Source of the DNA: a virus
IMG/VR virus record: IMGVR_UViG_3300047325_000022
Coordinates: 1-43,608 of that record
Direction: 5' to 3' (one strand)
DNA length: 43,608 nt
Shown: piece by piece, positions 1-43,608 of the stretch
Position numbering within the stretch: the first letter of the stretch is position 1
Layout: the number at the start of each line of letters is the position of its first letter
The notes under the pieces: generated by a model
Database searches by the model: none
Seen by the model: the letters and a program-made list of their open reading frames with translations, nothing else
Told to the model about the DNA's origin: nothing
Translations under genes and position numbers: made by a program

Positions 1-193
1 CGACAAGATCACCGCCACTATGGTAAAGAAGGGCGCCGAGTATTCCACCGACCAAAACAAGTTGCATAACTTCGATAGGGCTGGGTCCATTGCTGGCGTT
101 AGTAGGGAACGGGCATTAGACGGAATGTTATTGAAGCACTACACTAGTTACCGCGACATGCTAGATAAGCTCGACGCCGGGCAGATCCCCACC
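1..193. repeat. Left copy of the 193-bp terminal overlap
   Basis: Bases 1-193 are the same as 43416-43608 except for T at 67 against C at 43482, a silent His codon difference (CAT/CAC). The overlap lies inside one open reading frame that continues across the joint. This fits an assembled circular or circularly permuted genome whose ends were not trimmed. True phage terminal repeats usually lie between genes or near the terminase genes, which makes that alternative less likely here. Confidence 0.9.
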
Positions 194-283
194 GACGAAA
201 TGATCGACGAGAAGATCGGGGACATTATAAATTATTTCATCCTGTTTGAAGCATGCGTGAAGGACCGCAATAATAAATTATGA
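2..283 (+). CDS. C-terminal part of a 107-aa phage protein (possible DUF1599-like); start is at the other end of the window
   Basis: The frame is open from the first base. Its true start is the ATG at 43375; the joined product is 107 aa. The ATG at 20 is internal and would remove the N-terminus. The protein is helical and acidic, with the stretches KKGAEYS, LHNFDRA and the later DEKIGDIINYFILFEA. This layout resembles small phage proteins related to DUF1599 (a domain linked to nucleotide modification), but that is recall and not a verified match. Its start overlaps the gpG-like gene by 13 bp and its stop overlaps the next gene by 4 bp, so it belongs to the head-tail operon. Function unknown. 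Confidence 0.8.
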   Translation, partial: DKITATMVKKGAEYSTDQNKLHNFDRAGSIAGVSRERALDGMLLKHYTSYRDMLDKLDAGQIPTDEMIDEKIGDIINYFILFEACVKDRNNKL

Positions 284-855
284 GTGGAATATCCGCGCCA
301 ATGTTGTCGATCTTGAATTTACTGGAGACGGTTCCCACGGTTCAGTTCGTAAACATTTGGAATAACCAAGTCAAAGACCAGGATAAAGGAAAGCTGTACG
401 CCTTTCCTAAGCCGGCTTTATTCCTTGAGTTGATCGCCCACCCGGCGTGGGAAGAAATCGGACTTGGAATTCAAAGCGCTGATATGGGCTGGCGAATTCA
501 TATCGTACACGAATTCTACGACGACCAAGAGGGAAACTTCGAGCGCAACATCCCGGTTATGATACTTCGCGATGGAGTGGTCGCCACCCTTTCGCACCAA
601 TGGCCGACAGGGTGCGGGCCGTTGATAAAGAAGACCGAAGCGCAAGACCCAAACCACACAATGATTTATCATTATGTAATTGACTTCACTTGCAACTTTA
701 TCGACAGCAAGGGCAGCCCCTACGACGAGGATGCCGGCAAGCGCACCGTAAGCGTTCCACCGACGGCCCTGGTCCTGGAGGCAAGCGAAGTTCCGGCCGT
801 AACCGTTGACACGCCGCCAACAAGTAGGTATATAATTCCGCAAACACAAAGTTAA
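280..855 (+). CDS. Putative tail completion/terminator protein
   Basis: The product is 191 aa. The first 150 residues look like a compact alpha/beta domain with short beta-strands (residues 70-140, including RIHIVHEFYD and YHYVIDFTCNFID), followed by a proline-rich tail of about 40 residues. Its place just after the Mu gpG-like gene and before the baseplate J gene suggests a head-tail joining or tail terminator role. The assignment rests mainly on gene order, because no diagnostic motif is visible. It overlaps the upstream gene by an ATGA junction (280-283) and ends 1 bp before the next ATG. Confidence 0.65.
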   Translation: MSGISAPMLSILNLLETVPTVQFVNIWNNQVKDQDKGKLYAFPKPALFLELIAHPAWEEIGLGIQSADMGWRIHIVHEFYDDQEGNFERNIPVMILRDGVVATLSHQWPTGCGPLIKKTEAQDPNHTMIYHYVIDFTCNFIDSKGSPYDEDAGKRTVSVPPTALVLEASEVPAVTVDTPPTSRYIIPQTQS

Positions 856-856
856 C

Positions 857-1702
857 ATGGCAAGAGCAATTAGCCTCATACAACAACAGATTTTAGACAA
901 CGTAGCCGCCGACCCCACGTTGGGGCCGCTGCTTACGTCGACCAGCAAACGCGCTATATACAATCTATGGGCGTTCATCGTTGCCGTTGCCGTAAACGTC
1001 GTCGAGCAGCTTATCGACATAATGAACGCGTTCGTCGAGTCGGTCGCAGCAGCAGCAGCGCCAGGGTCGCCGGCGTGGGTACAGGCTCAGGTATTGAATT
1101 TTCAGTATAGCGATACTGTCCCGCAAGTCGCGCAATTAATAAACTTCGCGCCTGCTTATCCTGTCGTAGATCCTACGCTCAGGATAATCAGCCGGTGTAG
1201 TATATCTACAGACCTTGCCAACAACGTGCAAATAAAGGTAGCAACCGGCACAACGCCTGCCGCACTTTCCACCGATCAGCTCGCGGCCCTGGTCGCTTAT
1301 GTTAAGGTGTTCGGCGTTGCCGGCATAACCTATACGAGTAACTCTACCGATGCTGACCGGTTATACATACAGGCTGAGGTTTATTATTTGGGGCAATATG
1401 GCACCGCCGAGGTTTTGGCCGTCCAAACCGCTATAGCAAATTTTTTGGCAACGATACCGTTTAACGGCGTTCTGAAGGTGAGCGACCTTGAGGCTGCAAT
1501 AAGGACCGTTCCCGGCGTCGACGACGTGCTACTGCAAAACGTATCGGCTCGGGCCGCAACGACCGCCTATGGGTCAGGAACCTCGCTTGTGTTGAATAAC
1601 CAAGTGGTCAGCAGGATATGGAATACCGTTAGCGGATACATCATTAACGAAGACACGACCGGCGAAACGATCGATTTATCACTAACCTTTATTCCTGTAT
1701 AA
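857..1702 (+). CDS. Baseplate J-like wedge protein
   Basis: The product is 281 aa. The pattern fits the baseplate J/gp47 family of contractile tails: a helical N-terminus, a middle domain with repeated beta-strands (about residues 110-200, including a VQTAIANFLATIPFNG stretch), then DLEAAIRTVPGVDDV near residue 210. The last motif matches the family's usual 'I..v.GV.dv' region. The protein would form part of the baseplate wedge that triggers sheath contraction. It lies well away from the gp25-like wedge gene at 12666, whereas J and gp25 are normally neighbours. One base separates it from both flanking genes. Confidence 0.7.
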   Translation: MARAISLIQQQILDNVAADPTLGPLLTSTSKRAIYNLWAFIVAVAVNVVEQLIDIMNAFVESVAAAAAPGSPAWVQAQVLNFQYSDTVPQVAQLINFAPAYPVVDPTLRIISRCSISTDLANNVQIKVATGTTPAALSTDQLAALVAYVKVFGVAGITYTSNSTDADRLYIQAEVYYLGQYGTAEVLAVQTAIANFLATIPFNGVLKVSDLEAAIRTVPGVDDVLLQNVSARAATTAYGSGTSLVLNNQVVSRIWNTVSGYIINEDTTGETIDLSLTFIPV

Positions 1703-1703
1703 T

Positions 1704-2375
1704 ATGAGCATATACGAAGTAAATTTTAGCAACCTCGGAAAAAGGATGCTGCCACCGGATAAGCGCGGGTCGAAAATGTGGGCCTGGGTTACGGCTATGT
1801 TATCGCCGATACAGTGGGTACGCGATCTGTGGTTCGGCGATTACAGGACCGGCAGCCAGGCGCAAGAATACCTGACGACGACGACCTACCAAAAGTATCA
1901 ACGGGCGATATACCGGTTCGCGGTGTACGAGTCTTTGATCGACGACAACAACTTTATCCCATCCAACCCGATGGCCTGGCAGCTCGTCCAAAAGAATTTT
2001 ATCGGTCTCTACGAGCGGATACTGTATACCGGGCAAACTCTTGTGTTGACCTATGCTCTTAACAAGCGGTTTATGACAGACTTTCGGCAGCCGCCGGCGG
2101 TGAGTGACATATACATACAGGATATACCCAAACCCCTGTCGCCCTTCATTGTGGGCGGATCTGAGGCGAACAGCTCGGTAGTATACGCTAACACGTCGTC
2201 CGACTTTGTCATCGACGCATACAGCTTTACTGCCTACGTCAATATGATCATTTGGGTTCCGGTCGCCGTGTACCTGGCGCTCGACCCGCTGCCCGCAAAC
2301 TGTGACAAAATTATCCGCGCCTTCGCCGATCAGTATATCGTCGCCGGTATTATTTACTCCGTATCAACTTATTAA
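1704..2375 (+). CDS. Putative baseplate protein, position of gpI
   Basis: The 223-aa product starts 1 bp after the J-like gene and ends 3 bp before the fibre gene. This is the position of gpI in P2 and Mu-type tails, where gpI joins the baseplate to the fibres. I see no motif that proves this. It is rich in aromatic residues (W and Y near residues 25-60) and has a mostly helical first half and a beta-rich second half. The call is by gene order only; it could be another baseplate or adaptor protein. Confidence 0.6.
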   Translation: MSIYEVNFSNLGKRMLPPDKRGSKMWAWVTAMLSPIQWVRDLWFGDYRTGSQAQEYLTTTTYQKYQRAIYRFAVYESLIDDNNFIPSNPMAWQLVQKNFIGLYERILYTGQTLVLTYALNKRFMTDFRQPPAVSDIYIQDIPKPLSPFIVGGSEANSSVVYANTSSDFVIDAYSFTAYVNMIIWVPVAVYLALDPLPANCDKIIRAFADQYIVAGIIYSVSTY

Positions 2376-2378
2376 AAA

Positions 2379-3185
2379 ATGCGCAAATTAGATTTATCGC
2401 CGATCACTACGACCATTGGGATGCCCTTGAAATCGGGCTCTCTCATTCATCTTCAGAACGCCTACACCGAGGCGCTTGCAGCCCTTGGGTACGCCCTGGT
2501 AGGGTCGGACGCGGCCGCCGTGAATGTATACGTCCTCACCGGTTGCGTTAACACCGGAAGTGGCAGTACGTATAATATTTCGTCCGGAGCGGTTCTGTAT
2601 AATAATGAAATCTTCCAGGTGCCGGCCGCATCGTTCACGGCGCCGGCGGGACAGACGGCTGTCGCCAACATTGTCACGTCATATTTTTCGGCGTCCAATG
2701 CCGATGGCGTGCAGTTCACCGACGGCGTGGTAAGAAACGTACATCAAATTCGGCAGATTGTTATTTCCGCCGGCCTTTCGGGGTCCGGAGCTGCCGATTT
2801 CAGTGCCTTCCAATTGGTAAACACCAACCAGCCGGAATTAAACCTAACCGCTACCGGGCAGGCTGTAAAGTCTGGAACATACCCAAACATAAACATTGAT
2901 GTGCCGGAGCCGGCCGCGTCCGGCATACTGGCGATGGACAAGGTTGCGGTAGGTGACATAGCAGGAGGCGGTACGACCATGACAATCGTTTTCCGAACGC
3001 CAATAGCCACGAGTAACTATATCGTATTGGGTTCATTTATAAGCAACGGCACTCATTTGATAGACAGCGCGGTTGAATGGGCATGGTATACGCCAACGAC
3101 AGCAGGTTTTGACGTTCAGTTTAGCGAGACCGCTTCCGGCGTTCAGAATGTGACTTTCTGTTATGTAGTTATCGCATTTGCTTAA
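2379..3185 (+). CDS. Putative tail fibre protein
   Basis: The 268-aa product is low in charge and rich in Gly, Ala, Ser and Thr, with many short beta-strands, as in fibre shafts. The N-terminus (LSPITTTIGMPLKSGSLIHL) looks like an attachment domain. The C-terminal 90 residues (from about 180: ASGILAMDKVAVGDIAGGG, then an aromatic-rich end) look like a compact beta-sandwich tip that could bind a surface sugar. It follows the J-like and gpI-like genes, the usual place for a fibre. The receptor cannot be told from sequence. Confidence 0.6.
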   Translation: MRKLDLSPITTTIGMPLKSGSLIHLQNAYTEALAALGYALVGSDAAAVNVYVLTGCVNTGSGSTYNISSGAVLYNNEIFQVPAASFTAPAGQTAVANIVTSYFSASNADGVQFTDGVVRNVHQIRQIVISAGLSGSGAADFSAFQLVNTNQPELNLTATGQAVKSGTYPNINIDVPEPAASGILAMDKVAVGDIAGGGTTMTIVFRTPIATSNYIVLGSFISNGTHLIDSAVEWAWYTPTTAGFDVQFSETASGVQNVTFCYVVIAFA

Positions 3186-3205
3186 AAAACAATCCGTTTC
3201 CCTAT

Positions 3206-3409
3206 ATGTCGCGTTCATCTTCAAAGGACCGGGTGATACAAGCGTATCCCCGGCCTAAATATAATCTCTTTGCCCGGGCGTATGCATCGGTTAACGAAAT
3301 GAGCTTGAGCGAAACCGTCGAGAAGGCGCTCAGGGAAATGTATGAGCGTATGCCCGAGGGGGACCGCGTTAGGCTCATGCATCAATATGAAAATCCTATG
3401 CATGAATAG
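3206..3409 (+). CDS. Small basic protein, possible ribbon-helix-helix type
   Basis: The 67-aa product has a short strand-like start (DRVIQAYPRP), then two helices around MSLSETVEKALREMYERM. That resembles the ribbon-helix-helix fold of small phage DNA-binding proteins, but the match is by pattern only. It sits between the fibre gene and the protease-scaffold gene, with 20 bp upstream and 50 bp downstream. A regulatory role in the middle of a structural operon would be unusual, so it may be structural instead. Confidence 0.55.
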   Translation: MSRSSSKDRVIQAYPRPKYNLFARAYASVNEMSLSETVEKALREMYERMPEGDRVRLMHQYENPMHE

Positions 3410-26029: not shown

Positions 26030-27007
26030 ATGTCACTAAGAATTGCAACCCGGCAGAAAGCCAAATTAAGGATGGGCCTATCGGCTACATCCGGAGCCGG
26101 CAAAACCTATTCCGCCTTATTGATGGCGAAGGGCATCGCCGGCGGCGACTTCTCGAAAGTCGCGCTCATCGATACCGAAAACGGAAGCGGAGATCTATAC
26201 GCGCATCTCGGGCCGTACAACGTCCTCCCACTTGTGGCGCCGTTCACGCCTGAGCGTTATATCGAATCCATTAAGGAGTGTGAGGCGGCCGGGATGGAGG
26301 TTATTATCGTCGACAGCATTACCCACGAATGGGATGGGCAGGGTGGATTGCTGTCAATCTCGGCGGCTATGTCTGGAAACTCTTACACCAATTGGGCAAA
26401 GCTCACCCCGAGGCACGACGCCTTTGTACAGGCGATCTTGCAAAGCTCCTGCCACGTTATTACAACGGTGCGCCGGAAGCAGGATTACGAAATGAGTAAA
26501 GACAGCAACGGAAAAGCGACCGTAACAAAGCTCGGCATGAAAGAAGTAACCCGCGATGGTTGGGAGTACGAGCTTACGGCAAACCTGGAGCTTGAATTGA
26601 GCCACTATGCGACCGCCTCAAAGGACCGTACCGGTCTGTTTTCCGGTAAGCCCTCGTTTATCCCGAGCGAAGAAACCGGCCGGATGCTACGCGCATGGTG
26701 CGACAGCGGCGCCGAGCCATTGCCGGTAGAAAAGCCTGCCGCCACTACAATGGAAGAACTGACTTTAGATCATCCTAAGTACGCGGCCGTCCTGGACGCG
26801 ATCGCAAATAAGGGATATACGATTGGGCAGGTTGAAAGCAAGTACACGATTAGCGACGAGGTTCGCGCTGCTCTGGAGGCTATCATTAAGCTGAAGGCTC
26901 CAGCCGGTCCGCTACCCATTCAGCAACCGACACACATCGCCCCGGCAGCCGGCGTAGATCCTGCCACTAACGGCGCCGCGAAGCCGGCAAGTAAGCGGCC
27001 GTTTTAA
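26030..27007 (+). CDS. Sak4-like recombination ATPase (AAA_24 family)
   Basis: The 325-aa product has a Walker A motif GLSATSGAGKTYSALL (16-31), LIDTENGSGD near 46-55, and a Walker B strand MEVIIVDSIT near 90-98. Such short RecA-like phage ATPases (Sak4 type) anneal single strands and work with an SSB; an SSB gene lies at 35692 and an exonuclease at 28973. The last 90 residues are a separate Pro/Ala-rich region of unknown role. Confidence 0.8.
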   Translation: MSLRIATRQKAKLRMGLSATSGAGKTYSALLMAKGIAGGDFSKVALIDTENGSGDLYAHLGPYNVLPLVAPFTPERYIESIKECEAAGMEVIIVDSITHEWDGQGGLLSISAAMSGNSYTNWAKLTPRHDAFVQAILQSSCHVITTVRRKQDYEMSKDSNGKATVTKLGMKEVTRDGWEYELTANLELELSHYATASKDRTGLFSGKPSFIPSEETGRMLRAWCDSGAEPLPVEKPAATTMEELTLDHPKYAAVLDAIANKGYTIGQVESKYTISDEVRAALEAIIKLKAPAGPLPIQQPTHIAPAAGVDPATNGAAKPASKRPF

Positions 27008-28322: not shown

Positions 28323-28976
28323 ATGAAAGCAATTTATTTGTTTGTACAGGGTGAGGGATGGGCATCCTTTGACCTGGAGGCGGAAGCCACCAAAGCGGAG
28401 TTTAGTAAAAGAGGTATTTCGATCGGCTTCAACGCGACGATCGGCTACAACGCGAAGATCGGCTTCAACGCGACGATCGGCGATTACGCGAATATCGGCT
28501 CCCACGCGAATATCGGCGATTACGCGAATATCGGCGATTACGCGACGATCGGCTACAACGCGAATATCGGCGATTACGCGAAGATCGGCTTCAACGCGAC
28601 GATCGGCTACAACGCGAAGATCGGCTTCAACGCGACGATCGGCTACAACGCGAAGATCGGCTTCAACGCGACGATCGGCGATTACGCGAATATCGGCGAT
28701 TACGCGAAGATCGGCTTCAACGCGACGATCGGCTCCAACGCGAATATCGGCGATGACGCTGTTATAGTGAAAACGATTTTTATAACCGGAAGCAAACACA
28801 CTGTTTCATGGTGGGGTACAAGTCAATTACTTATAGGCTGTAAGCAGTATGAAATTTCCTACTGGCAGCGCATGTACGCTAACGTAGGAGACGGAGAGTC
28901 ATACAGCGACGACGAAATCGCCGAGTATAAGCAGTATATCGATATGATCGCTTCGATTATTCCTGACGCTGTATGA
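28323..28976 (+). CDS. Hexapeptide-repeat (left-handed beta-helix) phage protein
   Basis: The 217-aa product has a 33-residue start, then nineteen back-to-back hexapeptides of the form I-G-x-x-A-x (residues about 34-147: IGFNAT, IGYNAK, IGDYAN, IGSHAN and others). These fit the left-handed beta-helix rule [LIV]-[GAED]-x2-[STAV]-x exactly and would make about six turns. The C-terminal 70 residues (HTVSWWGTSQLLIGCKQY, ISYWQRMYANVGDGESY) are a conserved-looking domain. It is not a plain acyltransferase: no catalytic His is visible in the repeat. Role unknown. Confidence 0.8.
   Translation: MKAIYLFVQGEGWASFDLEAEATKAEFSKRGISIGFNATIGYNAKIGFNATIGDYANIGSHANIGDYANIGDYATIGYNANIGDYAKIGFNATIGYNAKIGFNATIGYNAKIGFNATIGDYANIGDYAKIGFNATIGSNANIGDDAVIVKTIFITGSKHTVSWWGTSQLLIGCKQYEISYWQRMYANVGDGESYSDDEIAEYKQYIDMIASIIPDAV
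28422..28763 (+). repeat. 18-bp tandem repeat array (19 units)
   Basis: Nineteen units of 18 bp, each starting ATCGGC, run without interruption. They differ at a few positions (TTCAACGCGACG, TACAACGCGAAG, GATTACGCGAAT and similar). The period keeps several other frames open, which explains the false long frames on both strands. The high DNA identity suggests recent growth by slippage or recombination. Confidence 0.95.
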
Positions 28977-29620
28977 TCTCTTGCCGCCATACACAATTAG
29001 GGGAGGCGGCATACCGTCGCCACCCCTTCGTTTCAAACTCGGCGTTGAGCGCCATGAAAAGCGGCTACCTCAACTTAGCCGCATTCAGGACCGGAACGCT
29101 AGCACACTCGACCATACTGGAGCTGCCGAAGGTAAACGCGTACACCGGAAAGATAGAAGGGCAGGAATACACCTACAGCATCGATGAGATCGACCTCGCG
29201 ATGGACATGCGCCGGGCCTTTTACAAGAGCCAGTTTTGCGCTGACCTGGTTCAATGCTCTGAGGTTGAGGTCGAAATGTACAACGCAAATACGCAGTTCG
29301 ACGGGATCGCATTGGACACCAAAAGAAAATACGATATATGGAGCTATACTTTAGGGTGGGGCGGGGATCTGAAATCTACCACGGCACGAAGCGAAGCGGA
29401 GTTTCTGCACCATATCGACCAATTCGATTACGACCGGGCGAGGGTATTCTATGCGAAGGGATCGGGAGCGAAGAAAGACGTAATAATCGGGATCAGCAAA
29501 CACAAACCCCACCCGCTGTATATCGTCACCATGCAAGAAGGCGACCCCATTTGGACGCGCGGCCTGGCGAAGTGTAACGCCATTACAAAATTGTATCACG
29601 AATTAAATCCACCGTTTTAA
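28973..29620 (+). CDS. PD-(D/E)XK exonuclease
   Basis: The 215-aa product has the SNSALSAMKSGYL start common to phage exonucleases of the YqaJ/RecB type. The catalytic set is Asp in FDGIALDTKRKYDIW followed by GGDLKST (D-x-K). DYDRARVFYAKGSGAKKDVI is the next conserved-looking part. It would chew DNA ends to give single strands for the Sak4-like protein. It overlaps the hexapeptide gene by 4 bp. Confidence 0.75.
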   Translation: MISCRHTQLGEAAYRRHPFVSNSALSAMKSGYLNLAAFRTGTLAHSTILELPKVNAYTGKIEGQEYTYSIDEIDLAMDMRRAFYKSQFCADLVQCSEVEVEMYNANTQFDGIALDTKRKYDIWSYTLGWGGDLKSTTARSEAEFLHHIDQFDYDRARVFYAKGSGAKKDVIIGISKHKPHPLYIVTMQEGDPIWTRGLAKCNAITKLYHELNPPF

Positions 29621-37478: not shown

Positions 37479-38946
37479 GCCGGTACGGGTCCAGTGGCCT
37501 AAGTGGTCCCGAATAATTAACCAGGCGTTCGTCCGGCTTACAAAGATCCGGGCGCGATTCGTAATACTGTACGGCTCTCGCGGATCTTCGAAATCGGATT
37601 ATGTGGCAAAGCAGTTGGTATACAACTGCCTTTCACACAAGTATTTTAAATGCATCTTATACCGTAAGAATTTCAACACGATTCAAGAGTCGTCTTACGA
37701 GAACATAAAACAAACAGTCATTTCGCTCGGGCTACAAAGTCTTTTCACCTTCAGGGTAGCCCCGCTTACAATCATTTGCACAAACGGAAACAAATTCATC
37801 GCCCGAGGCGGTGACGACCCGGCTTCGCTCAAGTCCATCAAAGACCCTACGTGCGTATGGTATGAGGAGGACATTCCAGACGAATCCGATTTCGCCACTA
37901 TCTCGCTGACGATACGCTCGGGCAAGGCCGACGTCTTACAGGAGTTCTTTACCATTAACCCGGAAGTCGGCGAAGACTTTCGAGATAACTGGTTTTGGAA
38001 ACGCTTTTTCGAAGGTCACGACGAATTAGCATACACCACAAAGACAGTCGTAGAGGTTGAGGGCGAGCAGGTGGAATACGAGGCCGTTATCCATCATTCG
38101 GTATACCAGGATAACAGGTGGCTGCCCGTTATGGTTAAGGCGCAAATCGAAGGATACAAGGATACTAACGAGTACCTATATGCGGTTTACGCCAAGGGCC
38201 TTTGGACCATGAAACAAACCGGCGGCAACTTTTACAAGTTATTCAACCGTATACACAATGTGGTGCCGAATAAGAACGGACAAAACGGACTGCCGATACT
38301 ATACGACCCGGCTAAGATGCTGCATATAAGTTTTGACTTTAACGTAAACCCTTATATAACGCTCACGATTTGGCAGGCCGACGTTAGGAAGAACGAAGCG
38401 ATACAGATTGACGAGATATGCCTGTCGACGCCGAATAACAGGACAGAGAATTTATGCAGGGCATTCGCGGCTAAGTATAGAGGTCATAGCGCTGGTCTTT
38501 GGGTATACGGCGATCCTTCTGGAAAGCAGGAGGACACGAGGACGGAGAAAGGCTTCAACGACTATATCATCATATTGAGGGCGCTTGCAGAATTCAGGCC
38601 CCGCGACCTGGTTGCGAAAGTCGCGCCTCCGGTTCACATGAGGGGGCAGTTTATAAACACGGTGTTTGCGACGGGGTATAATGGGTTGCATTTCTATATA
38701 GGCGACAACTGTAGTAAGACGATCGCCGATTATATGTACCTCAAAGAGGCGAGCGACGGGACCAAGGCAAAGATAAAAGAGAAGCACCCGGAAACGGGTA
38801 TATCGTGCGAGAAGTACGGCCACACGTCGGACGCAAACGATTACTTCATTTGCCAAATGTTCGACACAGAATTCAAGTTTTATCAAAAGGGTGGAGTAAC
38901 AACGCCGCCGAGAGCTGGTAAGAATATTTCTAAAAATAGTTGGTAA
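37471..38946 (+). CDS. terL: Terminase large subunit (PBSX-like)
   Basis: The 491-aa product has the ATPase motifs of large terminases: LYGSRGSSKSDYVAKQL (Walker A at 35-42) and CVWYEEDIPDE (Walker B with catalytic Glu at 129-133). The nuclease half begins near 285 (MLHISFDFNVNPYITLTIW) with Asp residues, then VYGDPSGK and the HTSDANDY end of the RNase H fold. It is the packaging motor and cutter. PBSX-type terminases are often linked to headful packaging, so the circular map may reflect permutation. Confidence 0.93.
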   Translation: MSEPVRVQWPKWSRIINQAFVRLTKIRARFVILYGSRGSSKSDYVAKQLVYNCLSHKYFKCILYRKNFNTIQESSYENIKQTVISLGLQSLFTFRVAPLTIICTNGNKFIARGGDDPASLKSIKDPTCVWYEEDIPDESDFATISLTIRSGKADVLQEFFTINPEVGEDFRDNWFWKRFFEGHDELAYTTKTVVEVEGEQVEYEAVIHHSVYQDNRWLPVMVKAQIEGYKDTNEYLYAVYAKGLWTMKQTGGNFYKLFNRIHNVVPNKNGQNGLPILYDPAKMLHISFDFNVNPYITLTIWQADVRKNEAIQIDEICLSTPNNRTENLCRAFAAKYRGHSAGLWVYGDPSGKQEDTRTEKGFNDYIIILRALAEFRPRDLVAKVAPPVHMRGQFINTVFATGYNGLHFYIGDNCSKTIADYMYLKEASDGTKAKIKEKHPETGISCEKYGHTSDANDYFICQMFDTEFKFYQKGGVTTPPRAGKNISKNSW

Positions 38947-38952
38947 CATAAC

Positions 38953-39846
38953 ATGGGCTATCTCATACAAAAGGATTTCAACAAGTCGATACAGGCCGAC
39001 AACCTTGCGCAGGTTATCGGGTCGGACCAGTCCGTATTATGTGACGCCGAAACATTCGCGTATTCGGTAGCCAAGTCTAAACTTATCCAAAAATATGATA
39101 TTAGCCAGGAGCTACAGGATACGCCGGGATGGGACGCTACACTCGTCTATAAGGCTGCCAATCGCGTCTACCTCAATCCACCCGCGTACAATACGGCTAC
39201 GAATTATATTCCTGGCTCTTATACGACTTACGGCGGCAATGTGTATATCTGCAATACAGATACTACGGGCGTTTTTACGCTGTCTGCTTGGACTTTGGTA
39301 GCGACTCAATACCAAATCTACTACGCCGCGTATCCGGCTCAGGTGTTCAACTTGTACGCCTGCTATAACGTCGGCGACGTAGTATACTGGAAAGGAAATG
39401 TGTATACGGCGCTTAGGTCTTCCACGCCATTGGATCAGACAGAAATGATACAGTACGGCACATACGAAAACCTGCCCTTCATCAACATCTTCCCCGACAA
39501 CGTACAGAACGGCCCCTCCGCTTGGGGCGTGGGCGTTCCCTACACCGTCCCGGCTGAGACCGACATACAGAACACGACGTATTGGACCAAGGGCGATAAC
39601 AGGAACGCGGAGCTAAGGACGCATTTGGTATCGATCACGCTTTACCAGGTACATCAAAGAATATCGCCCAACAACATACCAGAGCTACGGCGCGAAAACT
39701 ACCACATGGCGATGCAGTGGCTTAAAGAGGCTTCGGGCGTCGACGGAAAAGACGGCGGCATGACGGTAGACCTTCCCGTTAAGCAACCGACTCAAGGTAT
39801 GCGCGTTCGGTCAGGCGGAAACGTTAAACTAATCAACAGGTATTAA
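38953..39846 (+). CDS. Mu gp36-like head-tail adaptor with an inserted carbohydrate-binding-like region
   Basis: The 297-aa product is twice the length of usual DUF1320/gp36 adaptors. Residues 1-55 (NLAQVIGSDQSVLCDAETFA) and about 218-262 (LRTHLVSITLYQVHQRIS, NYHMAMQWLKEASG) look like the two halves of that fold. Between them (about 60-215) lie two or three Trp/Tyr-rich modules with a Y-x-x-G-D-V-V-Y-x-x-G-x-V-Y pattern (YNVGDVVYWKGNVYTAL), as in small chitin- or sugar-binding domains. They may sit outside the head-tail joint. Confidence 0.65.
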   Translation: MGYLIQKDFNKSIQADNLAQVIGSDQSVLCDAETFAYSVAKSKLIQKYDISQELQDTPGWDATLVYKAANRVYLNPPAYNTATNYIPGSYTTYGGNVYICNTDTTGVFTLSAWTLVATQYQIYYAAYPAQVFNLYACYNVGDVVYWKGNVYTALRSSTPLDQTEMIQYGTYENLPFINIFPDNVQNGPSAWGVGVPYTVPAETDIQNTTYWTKGDNRNAELRTHLVSITLYQVHQRISPNNIPELRRENYHMAMQWLKEASGVDGKDGGMTVDLPVKQPTQGMRVRSGGNVKLINRY

Positions 39847-42663: not shown

Positions 42664-42948
42664 ATGCCACAAGGTAAATACAAGAGAACCGGAAACTTAG
42701 CCGTCGATATGGTCGCGGCCTGCAAAGATCACTACGCGCGCCAGGGTGTTAAGGTAGAGCGGGTGTATCTGTCGAAGTCGTATTGGAATCAATTCAATCG
42801 GTATCTAAAAAAACAGGTGCCGGGACATATCGACGAAGGCTTTATCGACTTCGACGATACGATCGTCATGGAAAGCACAATCATACAGCCGGACCCGATA
42901 CACTTTGTATTGGAGGGCAGCATTAAAAAGCACAAGTACGATGCCTGA
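42664..42948 (+). CDS. Small structural or assembly protein between gpF and gpG
   Basis: The 94-aa product starts at the ATG at 42664; an earlier start at 42568 would overlap the gpF-like gene by 86 bp and is rejected. It has a basic start (PQGKYKRTGNLAVDMVAACK), then a beta-rich part (EGFIDFDDTIVMESTII). No family is recognised. It overlaps the gpG-like gene by 8 bp. Confidence 0.6.
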   Translation: MPQGKYKRTGNLAVDMVAACKDHYARQGVKVERVYLSKSYWNQFNRYLKKQVPGHIDEGFIDFDDTIVMESTIIQPDPIHFVLEGSIKKHKYDA

Positions 42949-43387
42949 AGAAAACAAGTTTGGATTTAAGTTCATCCTCGCCAATATGGGAACGCTGAAA
43001 AAGAAGCTCCCGCAATTATTGGCCAACCAGGCGCAACAGTTTTTCGTCAGCTCATGGAGTCAAAACGGATGGGACGGGACGCCTTGGGCTGAAGTGAAAC
43101 GCCGGCAGGATTGGACGAAGGCTTTCAAGTACGCGAAGCCGGCAGATCGGACGCGGCATATCCTAGTAAAGACAGGCGCGCTACGCAGGGCCGTCGGGGA
43201 TTGTGTTAGGTCTGTGAGCTTTGAGAAAACGGTTTTGGTGGTAGAGGTTCCGGGAGATTACGCCGAGTACATCAACAACGGGACCGACAAAATGCCCGCT
43301 CGTCCTTTTATGAAGGATAGCGAGCTACTGAGAACGAAACAAATTCAGCTAATCGAAAAAGAAGTAGACAGGATATGGATCAAGTAA
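42941..43387 (+). CDS. Mu gpG-like virion morphogenesis protein
   Basis: The 148-aa product starts at 42941; an upstream frame start at 42905 lies inside the preceding gene. WSQNGWDGTPWAEVKRRQD and ILVKTGALRRAVG followed by YAEYINNGTDKMPARPFMKD are the family hallmarks (tail completion/gpG type). It joins or completes the tail. It overlaps the following gene by 13 bp. Confidence 0.8.
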   Translation: MPEENKFGFKFILANMGTLKKKLPQLLANQAQQFFVSSWSQNGWDGTPWAEVKRRQDWTKAFKYAKPADRTRHILVKTGALRRAVGDCVRSVSFEKTVLVVEVPGDYAEYINNGTDKMPARPFMKDSELLRTKQIQLIEKEVDRIWIK

Positions 43388-43608
43388 CTTTTAACAAATT
43401 GGTCGTCGAGCGTTGCGACAAGATCACCGCCACTATGGTAAAGAAGGGCGCCGAGTATTCCACCGACCAAAACAAGTTGCACAACTTCGATAGGGCTGGG
43501 TCCATTGCTGGCGTTAGTAGGGAACGGGCATTAGACGGAATGTTATTGAAGCACTACACTAGTTACCGCGACATGCTAGATAAGCTCGACGCCGGGCAGA
43601 TCCCCACC
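43375..43608 (+). CDS. N-terminal part of the 107-aa protein completed at the window start
   Basis: The ATG at 43375 overlaps the gpG-like stop and opens DQVTFNKLVVERCDKITATM, giving the first 14 residues that are missing at position 2, then the same sequence as the start of the window. The frame has no stop up to the edge at 43608. This shows that the ends of the window join in one gene. Confidence 0.85.
   Translation, partial: MDQVTFNKLVVERCDKITATMVKKGAEYSTDQNKLHNFDRAGSIAGVSRERALDGMLLKHYTSYRDMLDKLDAGQIPT
43416..43608. repeat. Right copy of the 193-bp terminal overlap
   Basis: Same as bases 1-193 except C43482 for T67. It sits inside the reading frame of the 107-aa protein. See the entry at 1-193. 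Confidence 0.9.

Follow-up and report, generated by a model that had tools for sequence, protein, structure and literature searches.

Among the closest described proteins are left-handed beta-helix proteins of the Hexapep family, such as LpxA and GlmU. In left-handed helices built of hexapeptides, positions 1 and 5 of the unit point inward, and positions 3, 4 and 6 are exposed. The window, i.e., the whole stretch of viral DNA that was analysed (43,608 nucleotides), encodes a protein of 217 aa (P0001) which has the repeat motif and the rung length in common with LpxA and GlmU. In contrast to them, it has no catalytic His, it is capped by a C-terminal domain (C-domain) that is absent from Pfam, and its array is rewritten between relatives. 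The same C-domain stands behind the repeat of the YdcK-type beta-solenoid (PF18836) in 8 of 45 family members, whereas the window protein is built of IGxxAx units. MfpA and Qnr are likewise solenoids made from short repeats, and some relatives of P0001 combine pentapeptide arrays with a related C-domain. The window protein differs from MfpA and Qnr by its hexapeptides, by a probably opposite hand and by an array that is not strongly acidic. The phage families PHROG 5353 and PHROG 32789, to which it belongs, are recorded without function. In the open-licence literature searched, we found no description of the family, of the hypervariability of the array or of a cap shared across solenoid types.

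The gene and its downstream neighbour are laid out as follows:

28323 to 28976, plus strand: open reading frame of the whole gene, coding for the predicted capped beta-solenoid protein (PHROG 5353, E 1.1e-43; homologues)
28323 to 28421, plus strand: N-terminal cap (N-cap), residues 1-33 (MKAIYLFVQGEGW..F..KRGIS), conserved in IGxxAx-type relatives
28422 to 28763, plus strand: array of 19 units of 18 bp, IGxxAx, residues 34-147 (unit count, repeat finder)
28764 to 28973, plus strand: C-domain, residues 148-217, predicted bbbbaa (30-member alignment; pLDDT 93.7; PHROG 32789)
28973 to 29620, plus strand: RecE/exonuclease VIII-like gene, context outside the protein (phrog_412, E 9.4e-5)

The PHROG 5353 profile matches residues 30-213 and covers both the array and the C-domain, and PHROG 32789 matches the C-domain taken alone. 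The array passes the Pfam Hexapep cut-off of 27 bits with a score of 74 bits, and nothing beyond hexapeptides matched in Pfam. A PF22325 ‘CR4_N’ match and a methyltransferase stretch were below threshold and were discarded. The Hexapep score and the homologues, which have the same frame, caps and repeat, exclude a chance origin of the array.

The sequence-only reading had described 19 uninterrupted I-G-x-x-A-x units followed by a conserved-looking domain of about 70 residues. Both were borne out: the array measures exactly 342 bp, the domain aligns across 30 members, and residues 1-33 form a conserved cap as well. The 18-bp repeats were also confirmed (Tandem Repeats Finder: 28421-28751, period 18, 18.4 copies, 81% matches, score 382), but to call them near-identical was too strong, since the mean pairwise DNA identity of the units is 81% and 9 distinct units occur among the 19. 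One further, minor tandem array was found in the window with the same program. Codons 1, 2 and 5 of the unit form a fixed scaffold (ATC 19/19, GGC 19/19, GCG 18/19, the single exception being synonymous), and codons 3, 4 and 6 carry nearly all differences between units. The array length is known from one metagenomic assembly. It is plausible, given that short reads usually exceed the longest exact repeat within the array (78 bp).

Judging from its sequence, the array is most likely a left-handed hexapeptide beta-helix with 18 residues per turn and about six turns. In the full-length model, short strands recur at intervals of six residues, although at weak confidence (pLDDT 74.6, pTM 0.48), and the model gave no significant match with Foldseek. 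Compared with GlmU, it reached a Z of 13.0 but an rmsd of 11.2 Å; compared with right-handed pentapeptide solenoids, the rmsd was 2.4 Å at a Z of 8.6. The distance-based score for GlmU goes along with a poor superposition, and the model may therefore be mirrored. Hence, structure prediction returned the expected beta-helix with modest confidence and a doubtful hand, and left-handedness is derived from similarity to known hexapeptides rather than from the prediction.

The C-domain is predicted with much better confidence. With 30 sequences, AlphaFold2 gave four strands and two helices (bbbbaa). Fold searches with this domain against the PDB returned no convincing match (best Z 5.2), and sequence matches were chance-like. 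The structure search proposed for the C-terminal residues was successful with viral predicted structures: in Foldseek comparisons with BFVD, the same fold ends phage proteins named pentapeptide, hexapeptide, ‘beta solenoid’ and ‘polymer-forming’, mostly at E values of 0.01-0.3 and with high probability. In phages, the C-domain follows at least four kinds of array, namely IGxxAx, VYGNAx, pentapeptide and GGxFx. Within the family (n = 45), Hexapep matched 32 members and Pentapeptide one, in addition to the eight with a YdcK solenoid and to GGxFx and GGTIL types. The arrays before the domain thus comprise IGxxAx or LGxxCx hexapeptides, VYGNAx (YdcK-type) repeats, five-residue GGxFx/GGTIL repeats and classical pentapeptides. 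At one locus, a hexapeptide version adjoins a pentapeptide version (L007); at another, a pentapeptide version seems to be split by a frameshift ahead of an intact C-domain (L034, 4804-5195).

Aligned C-domain sequences retrieved 33 loci from IMG/VR in one search and 39, partly overlapping, in a second. As these searches leaned on short conserved patterns, the family size is a lower bound. Scans with the single C-domain or exonuclease protein found no viral relatives, whereas the alignment-based scan did. In a collection of cultured and GenBank phages, 3 of 50,697 records matched the C-domain, and no phage in this collection was near-identical to the window. Contigs of 296 Bacteroidota genomes gave no match in a first scan and one locus in a second; the contig, from a Chitinophagaceae MAG, is a phage related to the window. 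The family is nearly phage-only; plasmids of Leptospira also carry relatives, with as many as five hexapeptide genes in tandem. On a Leptospira mayottensis plasmid, for example, five consecutive hexapeptide-repeat genes occupy 301-3231 of locus L008.

Close relatives have constant ends and different arrays. In close pairs, the caps are 94-100% identical in DNA (N-cap 95-100%), and the arrays have 15 vs 5 units (L010/L002; caps 94-96%, upstream DNA 92%), 18 vs 11 (L006/L007), 18 vs 19 (L006/L021) and 45 vs 32 (L009/L028, both in one 374-kb phage). Two loci from different metagenomes, L080 and L082, have both caps 100% identical in DNA (138/138 and 210/210 bases) and flanks at 94-97%, and the longest run shared by their arrays of 19 and 21 units is two units. 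The earlier expectation that array length changes by gain and loss of repeats is therefore demonstrated by near-identical relatives with different arrays. In L080 (558-1250), we also observed a nearly exact higher-order repeat of three units (54 bp), which corresponds to one full helix turn. A search of the whole record (completeness not given) for RVT_1 gave no reverse transcriptase match; a diversity-generating retroelement was rejected on this ground and because variation in the position-4 codons is confined to the first base.

That the array is rewritten and resized between constant ends suggests binding to something that changes in the host. We propose that P0001 may be an accessory binding scaffold with a diversifying exposed surface and a putative variable host target, a reading to which we give even chances. 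At exposed array positions, pN/pS was 1.8 (bootstrap 1.4-2.7) against 0.29 in the caps. This excess was derived by counting minimum events in short repeats, and codon constraint could partly account for it. Neutral simulation of unit turnover, in which codon-state saturation was also checked as a source of the excess, gave 1.01 ± 0.11, and 0 of 60 runs reached the observed value. In the window array alone, the excess of replacements has a p of about 0.04. These values support selection for surface change but do not prove it.

The array could also be a spacer that is insensitive to length, an inert rod between functional caps in which variation reflects slippage and unequal recombination of the 18-bp units. 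Such a rod would tolerate the range of 5 to about 45 units among relatives. The spacing from cap to cap keeps whole six-residue units and is free with respect to a full turn: modulo 18, all three registers of the distance from N-cap to C-domain were seen (9, 5 and 4 of 18), and the angle between the two caps is therefore not fixed, as expected of a spacer. Homogenisation of the array within each phage (identity 0.62-0.91 within vs 0.50 between arrays) fits slippage and recombination too. However, replacement changes at exposed positions exceed those of neutral turnover and the inner positions stay fixed, which makes the spacer rather unlikely.

The gene lies in an early-operon setting, with a Sak4-type ATPase gene (AAA_24) at 26030-27007 and the RecE/ExoVIII-like gene behind it, as the sequence-only reading had rightly recognised. 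Among ten terminase-related phages (the window and nine others), three carry a C-domain gene, each at a different place, several records being partial and absence in them uncertain. In the window, it precedes the exonuclease gene. In L046, it precedes DUF2800, an Enc34-type ssDNA-binding protein and DNA polymerase I, all named from their sequences and neighbour families. In L047 and L045, a version with a different repeat type lies between terminase and connector. This carriage at different places marks the gene as accessory cargo.

The terminase–connector gap is a hot spot for cargo insertion; it measures 6 bp in the window (38946-38953) against 0.6-2.7 kb of extra DNA in L047-L052. In L045, L046, L050 and L051, genes that lie at opposite ends of the window (1-855 and 42905-43608) are neighbours, which suggests that the record is a near-complete, circularly permuted genome. 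Elsewhere, mutually related neighbour proteins were found in L038 (2914-3954), L013 (1673-2125) and L040 (2135-3247). At least one of them has 8-residue SSTVxxMxG repeats and is a further phage protein built from repeats, encoded next to the hexapeptide gene.

The gene is often near PD-(D/E)XK recombination nucleases. The sequence-only reading had put forward a recombination or anti-defence role, and P0001 might be a scaffold of phage recombination that holds the Sak4-like ATPase, the PD-(D/E)XK exonuclease or both in place. The start codon of the exonuclease gene overlaps the stop codon of the hexapeptide gene (ATGA), and YqaJ, DUF3799, PDDEXK_1, DUF2800 and AAA_24 genes recur as neighbours, Leptospira plasmids included, as do methylases, these being raw recurrences, uncorrected for the background of early regions. 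We regard such a role as unlikely: relative L042 has both flanking genes of the window, with an exonuclease 46% identical to that of the window beside a RecT-like gene, but lacks the hexapeptide gene; L047 has it between terminase and connector; and hypervariability would be odd in a partner of conserved phage enzymes.

An inhibitor that mimics DNA in the manner of MfpA and Qnr, directed at gyrase, a restriction enzyme or another DNA-binding host protein, is very unlikely. Pentapeptide proteins show that a beta-solenoid of such size can act as a DNA mimic (review PMC10886550), and some relatives are quite acidic (L020, -3.0 per turn). In the window, however, the array has a net charge of only -3 over 6.3 turns (-0.47 per turn; relatives -3.0 to +0.3), P0001 has no Pentapeptide match, its units are hexapeptides and its surface is not strongly acidic. 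The earlier suggestion of a DNA mimic is therefore not supported. P0001 also matched none of the anti-phage defence profiles in PADLOC. An acyltransferase, which the similarity to the repeats of LpxA, LpxD and GlmU would allow, is extremely improbable and was rejected, because all NCBIfam enzyme models stay below their cut-offs (best 68.3 bits vs 207) and the one His in the array is not conserved, most IGxxAx arrays outside Leptospira having none. The earlier view of a repeat-built, non-enzymatic beta-helix is supported.

If P0001 is an accessory binding scaffold, it would be a cargo protein made early in infection. Exposed residues, lined up in rows along the parallel beta-helix, would form a binding surface, the N-cap and C-domain would close the ends of the rod, and the C-domain would probably also dock or oligomerise it. 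Whole units would be gained, lost and shuffled in the array, and the exposed residues, outpacing the neutral expectation, would tune the surface against a changing macromolecule. The putative target would most likely be a host protein of defence or takeover. Against this scaffold, drift of an unstable repeat could explain the variation of the array, and one relative adjoins structural genes. More tentatively, there may be a wider phage system of variable rods, in which a conserved cap is combined with interchangeable beta-solenoids and the surface is rewritten by unit shuffling under selection; such rods would be intracellular binders of variable host targets, e.g., defence proteins. This possibility we consider doubtful at present, and if true, it would in principle be a viral analogue of repeat-based recognition proteins.

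The shared C-domain provides one handle on many unannotated relatives among hexapeptide, YdcK-type and pentapeptide-type proteins. If the binding scaffold is right, this would be a phage family whose ends stay constant while its recognition surface evolves fast, which can be read directly from sequence, and the variable array would mark the interface with the putative host target.
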